Source of the DNA: Thioalkalivibrio sulfidiphilus HL-EbGr7
GTDB taxonomy: Bacteria > Pseudomonadota > Gammaproteobacteria > Ectothiorhodospirales > Ectothiorhodospiraceae
Assembly: GCF_000021985.1 (NCBI RefSeq)
Contig: NC_011901.1
Location: 1 to 64,000, forward strand
Reading direction: 5' to 3'
DNA: 64,000 bases
Positions 36,741-41,182 of this stretch are shown here, piece after piece. The notes beneath the pieces are model-generated. The model saw only the letters and a list, made by a program, of their open reading frames with translations, did not search any database and was not told where the DNA came from. The translations under genes and the position numbers were made by a program. The number at the start of each line of letters is the position of its first letter. Within the stretch, counting starts at the first letter, position 1.

Positions 36741-36775
36741 AAAAAAGGCCGGGCCCCTTGCGGAGCCCGGCCTTT
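36741..36775 (-). terminator. Terminator of soxYZ
   Basis: Stem AAAGGCCGGGC / GCCCGGCCTTT with a 10-nt loop and a T-run on the minus strand, 13 bp after the soxZ stop. Confidence 0.9.
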
Positions 36776-36787
36776 GGGCTTTGAGAC

Positions 36788-37096
36788 TTAGCCCACCTGG
36801 ACTTCGGTGGAATCGGCCTCGCCCTTGTTGTCGACCCAGGAGATCTTGAGGGTGTCGCCGGCGGCGGCGCCGGTGAACTGGAACGACAGGTAGGGGTTGC
36901 GGGAGATGGCCGGACCCCAGTAGGCGGTCAGCACGTTCTTGCCCTTGACCTCGGCGACCACTTCCTTGATGTAGTGGGCGGGGATAGGCTCACCGGCCTT
37001 GTTCTTGCGCTGGCCGGTCTCCATGGGGTGGCTCATCAGGGCACGCACGGTGGTGGTGTCGCCGGCGAGCTGAGCACGTACACGAATGCTGGACAT
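36788..37096 (-). CDS. soxZ: Thiosulfate oxidation carrier protein SoxZ
   Basis: SoxZ pairs with SoxY to form the periplasmic carrier of the Sox pathway. The 102-residue protein starts MSSIRVRAQLAGDTTTVRAL and has the family blocks LMSHPMETGQRKNKAGEPIP and NPYLSFQFTGAAAGD. It has no signal peptide, as expected, since it is exported with SoxY through the Tat system. GAAGGAGA precedes the ATG, 51 bp after soxY. No soxA, soxX, soxB or soxCD is adjacent, so the other Sox proteins must be encoded elsewhere. Confidence 0.97.
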   Translation of the reverse strand: MSSIRVRAQLAGDTTTVRALMSHPMETGQRKNKAGEPIPAHYIKEVVAEVKGKNVLTAYWGPAISRNPYLSFQFTGAAAGDTLKISWVDNKGEADSTEVQVG

Positions 37097-37147
37097 GGTA
37101 TGTCTCCTTCAAATAGTCGTTAGGCAATCAAGGTGTCGGTGGGGGGC

Positions 37148-37615
37148 TTAGCCGCCGCAGCCGCCGATGGTGACCTTGACTTCCTTGGAGGCGTTGTAGA
37201 GCCGGCCGTTGGCCTTGACCACAGCGATGATGTCGGAGGTCTCACCCATCTTGATACGGGTGGAGACGAAGGGCTTGGCGCCCTCGCCGAGCTTGTAGCT
37301 GGAGGTCAGGGGGGCGTTGGCGGTGGCGGCCAGGATGGCGATGTCGGTGACGCCGCTCATGCCGGTTTCCACGGTGATGGGCACCACGGCGCCGTTCTCG
37401 GCGATGTCGGGGGCCTGGATGCTGATGTCGCCGGCGGACATGGAGTCGGAGCCCATGGCGTTCTTGATGGCGTCAGAGACGGAACGGGGACCGAAGGCGG
37501 ATTCGGGCCATGCGGCCAGGACGGTACGGGGGGCGAGCATGCCCGCGCCCACGGCGACGCCCACGGCGCTGGCGGCCAGGGTGCCCTTCAGAAATACACG
37601 ACGCTTGCTATTCAT
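37148..37615 (-). CDS. soxY: Thiosulfate oxidation carrier protein SoxY
   Basis: SoxY carries sulfur intermediates covalently on a Cys near its C-terminus. The 155-residue precursor has a Tat signal (KRRVFLKGTLAASAVG, twin Arg at 5-6), the SoxY core, and ends VTIGGCGG with the carrier Cys at 153. GGAGAG precedes the ATG. A full-consensus sigma-54 promoter lies upstream, with a double palindrome beyond it, next to an NtrC-type regulator gene. This implies induced expression of soxYZ. Confidence 0.97.
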   Translation of the reverse strand: MNSKRRVFLKGTLAASAVGVAVGAGMLAPRTVLAAWPESAFGPRSVSDAIKNAMGSDSMSAGDISIQAPDIAENGAVVPITVETGMSGVTDIAILAATANAPLTSSYKLGEGAKPFVSTRIKMGETSDIIAVVKANGRLYNASKEVKVTIGGCGG

Positions 37616-37668
37616 GTCATCTCTCCTGCTTGTAGTGGTGTGACACGGTTTACGGTCAACAGGGATAC

Positions 37669-37684
37669 AGCAAGCCCTGTGCCA
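37669..37684 (-). promoter_or_regulatory. Sigma-54 promoter of soxYZ
   Basis: On the minus strand TGGCACAGGGCTTGCT matches TGGCAYR-N4-TTGCW at every position. The predicted start is near 37658, which leaves a 43-nt leader before the soxY ATG at 37615. Confidence 0.85.
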
Positions 37685-37750
37685 TTCGTAGAAATTATTG
37701 CGGGATCAATGGGATAGGCAGGGCAGGCGTGACGAATACCACCCGCATCA

Positions 37751-37786
37751 TTGCGAATTGCAATGGCTGCAAGTTGCAATTCGCAA
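37751..37786 (-). promoter_or_regulatory. Double palindrome, probable enhancer of soxYZ
   Basis: TTGCGAATTGCAA (37751-37763) and TTGCAATTCGCAA (37774-37786) are exact complements of each other, and each is itself a TTGC-N5-GCAA palindrome. Their centres are 23 bp apart, about two helical turns. The pair is centred about 110 bp upstream of the predicted sigma-54 start, the normal place for an NtrC-type activator, and lies 4 bp past the regulator gene's stop. Confidence 0.75.
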
Positions 37787-37789
37787 CCC

Positions 37790-39157
<1,368 letters not shown>

Positions 39158-39214: not shown

Positions 39215-41182
<1,968 letters not shown>

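Follow-up and report, generated by a model that had tools for sequence, protein, structure and literature searches.

How is the transcription of soxYZ controlled in Thioalkalivibrio sulfidiphilus HL-EbGr7, where the genes of a sensor histidine kinase and an NtrC-type response regulator are located upstream of soxY? Few mechanisms of sox regulation have been established, according to the accessible part of a 2023 paper (PMC10318464). As described in the available excerpts, SoxR is an ArsR-type repressor of the sox genes in Paracoccus, Pseudaminobacter, and Hyphomicrobium (PMC10318464, PMC12423496), and TTHA1953 is a CsoR-type regulator of the sox genes of Thermus (PMC10318464). In Acidithiobacillus caldus, the sox genes are reported to be under the sigma-54-dependent two-component control of TspS/TspR, with the upstream activator sequence (UAS) TGTCCCAAATGGGACA (PMC6335251, PMC12194929; also PMC10318464, PMC5093147). 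The locus considered here lies in the window, i.e., the whole 64,000-nucleotide stretch of DNA that was analysed, which is the start of a single-contig genome of 3,464,554 bases. Tgr7_0038-0041 of T. sulfidiphilus were reported as soxY, a sigma-54 Fis-family regulator, a histidine kinase, and a diaminopimelate decarboxylase (PMC6382920), and this gene order is apparently that of the window locus itself. Two soxYZ copies have also been reported in this genome (PMC3072093). The accessible parts of these two papers give the gene order and the copy number, respectively, without a promoter, UAS, or regulatory proposal for the locus, and no description of a promoter or operator at the soxYZ locus was found in the available text of the open-access literature.

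The minus strand of the window carries, in this order, the kinase gene, the regulator gene, an intergenic region with the promoter and the paired sites, soxY, soxZ, and a terminator-like hairpin. The soxYZ-side sensor histidine kinase (P0002, 655 aa; 39215..41182, minus strand) has a sensor region followed by HAMP-like, HisKA, and HATPase_c regions. HisKA and HATPase were assigned by Pfam, and the HAMP match was just below the cut-off (24 versus 25 bits). The approximately 300 residues N-terminal of the HAMP-like region are presumed to be periplasmic. The response regulator (P0001, 455 aa; 37790..39157, minus strand) consists of a receiver, a sigma-54 AAA+ domain, and a Fis-type HTH (GINKSTLWRKLQQY) according to Pfam and NCBIfam, and its sequence contains GAFTGA, as the original prediction had said of the adjoining regulator. 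The products of soxY (37148..37615, minus strand; thiosulfate-oxidation carrier protein) and soxZ (36788..37096, minus strand) both matched NCBIfam 'true' equivalogs. A probable intrinsic terminator, consisting of a G+C-rich hairpin and a subsequent T run, was recognised by eye 3' of soxZ (36741..36775, minus strand). The genome has one sigma-54 gene (rpoN).

AtoC, ZraR, and NtrC share the receiver-AAA+-Fis HTH architecture of the window regulator and differ from it in genomic context. They were its best NCBIfam models, with scores far under the cut-offs (AtoC, 430 versus 714 bits), and their binding sites differ from TTGC-N5-GCAA. SoxR also controls sox transcription, but it is a repressor that has no receiver domain and acts independently of sigma-54. 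TTHA1953 has the control of sox in common with the window regulator, whereas its protein family and mechanism are different. No ArsR-type repressor gene was noticed by eye among the open reading frames of 90 aa or more between 30000 and 46000, where the Pfam scan covered four window proteins.

Direct reading and a pattern search identified a predicted sigma-54 -24/-12 promoter element, TGGCACAGGGCTTGCT (37669..37684, minus strand), upstream of soxY. It contains GG-N10-GC and agrees with TGGCAC-N5-TTGCW at 11 of 11 positions. The -24/-12 consensus has G at position 7, where TGGCACAGGGCTTGCT has A; the original claim of a match at every position thus holds for these 11 positions but was slightly generous. 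Farther upstream are two putative upstream activator sites, TTGCGAATTGCAA (site 1; 37774..37786, minus strand) and TTGCAATTCGCAA (site 2; 37751..37763, minus strand), the former likewise found by direct reading and pattern search. Both are TTGC-N5-GCAA palindromes, and they are exact reverse complements of each other at a distance of 23 bp, in agreement with the mirror-image pair that had been predicted. Between the stop codon of the regulator gene and the first palindrome the offset is 3 nt, not 4 bp as originally stated; this palindrome starts directly behind the gene and is located 102 bp upstream of the -24 element.

TGGCAC-N5-TTGCW was found at 10 places in the 3.46-Mb genome, compared with 2 for a reversed-pattern control, and TTGC-N5-GCAA was found at 36 places, compared with 23 for its control. 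The exact paired palindrome sequence occurs once in the genome, and a pair of any TTGC-N5-GCAA sequences 6-14 bp apart also occurs once. A chance origin of the promoter and the pair was rejected on the basis of this uniqueness and the control patterns, together with the shuffled sequences, the unrelated loci, and the soxY genes without the regulator that are described below. As an alternative, most soxYZ transcripts might start at a sigma-70-type promoter or arise by read-through from the operon of the kinase and the regulator, with the sigma-54 site being secondary. Read-through would accord with the location of all these genes on one strand and with the failure to find a terminator-like site between the regulator gene and soxY. 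However, no sigma-70-like promoter was found in 37550-37850, where no terminator was found either, and the promoter and the sites are conserved across many families. We therefore regard this alternative as quite unlikely.

The kinase-regulator pair is very probably a local activator of soxYZ that acts via sigma-54. Sequence and comparison establish the gene order, the promoter element, and the paired sites, as well as the conservation of these features together and the lack of them at soxY genes that have no such regulator beside them; regulator binding, sigma-54 dependence, phosphotransfer, the identity of the signal, and the direction of regulation are what we infer from them. In the proposed circuit, the kinase would detect in the periplasm a reduced sulfur compound (most obviously thiosulfate) or a signal derived from one, and would then phosphorylate the regulator. 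Dimers of the regulator would bind to the two TTGC-N5-GCAA sites, which are about two helical turns apart, and an AAA+ oligomer would assemble there. Its GAFTGA loop, approximately 100 bp upstream of -24, would then remodel the RNA polymerase-sigma-54 complex at TGGCACAGGGCTTGCT, and soxYZ would be turned on.

A search of related genomes for the promoter and the palindrome pair upstream of soxY, which had been proposed together with the original prediction, found both to be conserved in many soxY-adjacent loci. The kinase sensor region was present in four of the four other genomes of the genus that were searched; two further sensor matches were weak (E about 5e-4, identity 24-26%) and were not counted as relatives. 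Both the palindromes and the promoter were present in the genus genomes G044 and G045. No pair was found in the two remaining genus genomes, in which the contig ends shortly beyond the kinase gene and does not include the region that would follow it. The palindrome cores of G045 are ATCCT/AGGAT, versus GAATT/AATTC in the window, and the half-sites and the 23-bp spacing are the same. Within the genus, both cores have changed while TTGC/GCAA, the spacing, and the promoter have been kept.

The regulator search gave matches in 53 of 369 genomes of the class at E values up to 1e-130, several genomes having two paralogues. Among the 73 matches, the window and eight others (seven with 49-54% identity and one with 56% identity and an internal stop) were not fetched, and the 66 relative loci consist of 64 from the class search and the two genus relatives. 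Upstream of the regulator, a kinase match was found in 65 of these 66 loci, and in 31 of the 66, belonging to 19 families, the regulator gene is directly upstream of soxY. Two sites, with at most one mismatch each, were found exactly 23 bp apart within 300 bp in 11 of the 65 relative loci with usable downstream DNA, one of the 11 (L248) being a distant paralogue. Nine of the loci with 23-bp spacing are upstream of soxY, and in these the sites are separated from -24 by 99-102 bp. The class genomes were also scanned blindly with the pair pattern alone, and 18 of the 369 matched, compared with 6 for the reversed control. Besides the window, three of the matches have a relative of the regulator nearby. 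Two of them (L043 and L047) are directly behind the regulator gene. The third (L052) is 638 bp behind it, yet a -24-like site follows the pair at 100 bp, ahead of soxY, which indicates that the pair stays with the soxY promoter. In 14 of the 18 genomes, no relative of the regulator was shown at the match, and those matches may be due to chance.

Among the 31 soxY-adjacent loci, which like all the locus counts include sister species and are thus not all independent, a strict -24/-12 site (GG-N10-GC, at least 9 of 11 positions) was present in 23 (shuffle mean, 0.9), and a site under a loose rule (GG and GC not required, at least 9 of 11) in 30 (shuffle mean, 2.2). A perfect TTGC-N5-GCAA was found in 17 (shuffle mean, 0.3), and two or more sites with at most one mismatch were also found in 17 (shuffle mean, 0.4). 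Unrelated control loci were collected with generic AAA+ peptides and comprised 80 NtrC-type regulators with 38-47% identity, 78 of which had enough downstream DNA. Neither the 23-bp site pair nor a perfect TTGC-N5-GCAA was detected in any of these 78 loci, and -24/-12 sites were found behind 13 (strict) and 17 (loose) of them. A second control consisted of 32 soxY genes without the regulator beside them, taken from the same order together with second copies elsewhere (L290 was left out because it has no upstream DNA). No strict -24/-12 site (9 of 11) was found upstream of any of these genes, and two sites were found in only one case. The agreement among the 31 loci is not complete: 8 were below the strict -24/-12 threshold, 14 had no perfect site, and L213 and L216 had neither. 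The soxY match showed less than 45% identity in 4 of the 31. The 23-bp spacing is limited to one group of loci, and the others have one site or other spacings.

Two further arrangements were observed. L254 (G011:C12) has a regulator with 77% identity by soxY, together with a -24/-12 site and a pair of sites spaced 22 bp; a search of this genome, a draft with 81% completeness, did not find the kinase sensor. L036/L056 (G217:C40:6186-6219) contains a perfect mirror-image pair, TTGCGGATTGCAA...TTGCAATCCGCAA, with a 21-bp spacing, and no regulator of the window-regulator family was found in the 8-kb contig.

The position of the palindromes immediately behind the regulator gene raises another explanation, namely that they act mainly at the RNA level, as a hairpin for termination or stabilisation of the kinase-regulator transcript, and not as an enhancer. 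The pair folds as one long stem (-17.9 kcal/mol), and complementarity of the cores is complete in the window and in L028, L030, and L189. However, the z-score of the fold was only -1.5, and no terminator-like site was found. Complementarity of the cores across nine non-redundant loci (L028, L198, and L248 were dropped as redundant or distant) was 31 of 45, barely above the permutation mean of 25.4 (p about 0.05), and this gives the exact mirror-image arrangement little support outside the genus. In addition, the half-sites and the spacing are kept elsewhere while the mirror relation is lost. Moreover, the distance of the sites from the stop codon varies from 0 to 64 bp, and is 638 bp in L055, yet their distance to -24 is constant. 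A hairpin or terminator as the main role was rejected on the basis of the z-score, the missing terminator-like site, the core complementarity close to the permutation mean, and the constant distance to -24, and we consider it very unlikely. The preferred function of the palindromes is that of activator sites for the adjoining regulator.

The two soxYZ copies of the genome differ in their upstream DNA. The window soxYZ (36743-37617) and the second copy at 2349532 on the plus strand (L279) are 99.1% identical over 875 bp; the identity ends at the start-codon region. The second copy adjoins a downstream soxB (NCBIfam equivalog), and no such sigma-54 promoter was found in the DNA upstream of it. 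The same is seen in the sister species G045, with 99.9% identity between its soxYZ copies over 867 bp. Between the two species, the second-copy regions share 83% identity, and the higher identity within each species suggests gene conversion between the soxYZ copies, one of which would be under the sigma-54 promoter. Contigs 5 and 54 of G044 (L281 and L028) end inside soxY, as was described for strain ALJ17 in the accessible part of PMC6382920. These assembly breaks were probably caused by the duplicate soxYZ.

In a quick tree with SH-aLRT support only, 31 of the 31 soxY-adjacent regulators were inside a 49-row clade (support 94). Among the 48 clade members besides the window, 31 are directly upstream of soxY, 5 are farther from soxY, and 5 are cut by contig ends; for the other 7, no soxY match was found in the 0.5 to 3.5 kb examined downstream. 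The other 18 family rows form a sister clade (L094, L095, L223, L227, L230, L231, L234-L240, L242-L244, L246, and L248), with no soxY match in the 0.9 to 3.5 kb examined downstream. The proteins of the next genes were scanned in 12 of these 18 loci, and all 12 matched DsrE (PF02635), with one match scoring slightly below the threshold. A strict -24/-12 site (at least 9 of 11) was present in 13 of the 18 (shuffles, 0.4), and TTGC-N5-GCAA with at most one mismatch was also present in 13 (shuffles, 2.8), although it was perfect in only 2. Inspection by eye indicated a porin-like gene farther downstream in L094, L095, and L236, and a SoxB-like reading frame approximately 1.2 kb behind the regulator gene in the distant paralogue L248 (G130:C2).

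A further place with both kinds of element was observed in the genome of the window. At G000:C1:1976440-1976596 (L027 10441-10597), TTGC-N5-GCAA occurs at 1976440 and 1976513, 73 bp apart, and TGGCACAGGCGTTGCA occurs at 1976581. This segment lies between a divergent NtrC-type two-component pair and the genes of a small protein and a SulP transporter; the Pfam scan of the small protein gave no match. Its sites could be used by either the window regulator or the divergent neighbour.

The sigma-54 promoter and the sites might be used by the adjoining regulator in response to a signal other than thiosulfate, such as the redox state, polysulfide or sulfide, or another periplasmic compound, and soxYZ might be one target of a broader sulfur regulon. 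Consistent with this reading are the second place near the SulP transporter gene, the sister regulator clade upstream of a DsrE-family gene, and the whole-kinase identity of 33-56% outside the genus. On the other hand, the divergent NtrC-type pair at the second place could be the true user of its sites, and nearly two thirds of the clade members, as counted above, are directly upstream of soxY. We regard this reading as a serious possibility, although the chances are slightly against it. Among 14 aligned kinases, dCache_1 was matched in 8, the kinase of the window not being one of them; the Pfam scan of its sensor region gave no Cache match, and the fold of this region predicted without an alignment had a mean pLDDT of 36.5. 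According to the accessible descriptions, TspS has sCache_3_2, a possible difference from these dCache_1 kinases.

The local activation of soxYZ by the kinase-regulator pair via sigma-54 resembles the TspS/TspR system in layout, i.e., a kinase, an NtrC-type regulator, a palindromic UAS, a sigma-54 promoter, and sox genes. Several features of a sigma-54 two-component sox system were found at the window locus, namely the regulator architecture, the adjacent kinase, the predicted -24/-12 element directly upstream of soxY, and putative palindromic activator sites approximately 100 bp farther upstream, and the genome has a sigma-54 gene. Li et al. reportedly described in 2017 similar clusters in other chemolithotrophs. 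The circuit might simply be TspS/TspR in another genus. The exact TspR UAS was found in 2 of the 369 class genomes and had no match in the genome of the window. Two regulators beside the published UAS with soxYZ downstream (L090 and L091) were taken as TspR, and they show 41-43% identity to the window regulator. In the quick tree, a branch with a support of 100 set the 67 family members apart and TspR was among unrelated regulators, although long branches meet at TspR and its place is unsure. The recognition helix is GISRKQLRTK in TspR and GINKSTLWRK in the window regulator. Furthermore, the window-regulator family is represented in both of the genomes that have the TspR UAS by a separate protein, which is 58% identical and is encoded upstream of DsrE-like and porin-like genes (the latter labelled by eye). 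Orthology with TspR was rejected on the basis of the identity, the separate clade, the recognition helix, and the absence of the UAS, and the identity of the two circuits is extremely doubtful. The separate clade and the separate family member in the TspR-UAS genomes make TspR and the window regulator look like separate recruitments. The two systems also differ in operator, TGTCCCAAATGGGACA for TspR versus the TTGC-N5-GCAA pair in the window, and in first target, soxX versus soxYZ.

The original prediction had presented a sigma-54 two-component circuit as a mode of sox control different from that by SoxR. The sigma-54 promoter, the double enhancer, and the adjacent two-component system of that circuit are strongly supported by conservation, but its novelty does not stand, since TspS/TspR of A. 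caldus and its UAS had already been published (PMC6335251, PMC12194929, PMC10318464; each as available in part). Sigma-54 two-component control of sox is thus already known, and what is new here, as judged by sequence comparison, is a non-orthologous regulator with a different predicted DNA signal. Grimm et al. (2011, PMC3153027) is said to be the source for a two-component system implicated in the control of sox in Allochromatium vinosum. This organism is a purple sulfur gammaproteobacterium. In the accessible part of PMC10318464, a two-component system is stated to possibly act on sox in A. vinosum, with regulators that have no homology to TspR/S; these could be relatives of the window family.

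Thiosulfate sensing and the switching of sox in gammaproteobacterial sulfur oxidizers have been little studied. A conserved regulator with a defined predicted operator offers a starting point for experiments in many families simultaneously, as well as a marker for further members of the sox regulon. T. sulfidiphilus HL-EbGr7 originates from a sulfide-removing bioreactor, according to the accessible part of PMC3072093, and knowledge of the switch of the thiosulfate branch would therefore be of practical value. The locus is also a probable example of a single pathway that has come under sigma-54 control independently. Taken as a whole, it is somewhat probable that the regulator and its kinase represent a separate sigma-54 two-component family for sulfur oxidation that is not orthologous to TspS/TspR and is distinguished by a sensor type and an operator of its own, the latter being TTGC-N5-GCAA, paired at exactly 23 bp in one group of loci. 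This family would be a common means of soxYZ control across Gammaproteobacteria, its sister branch would control a DsrE-family protein, and sox would have been put under sigma-54 at least twice. In T. sulfidiphilus and its nearest relatives, the system would drive only one of two near-identical soxYZ copies, so that one carrier protein would be under two controls.
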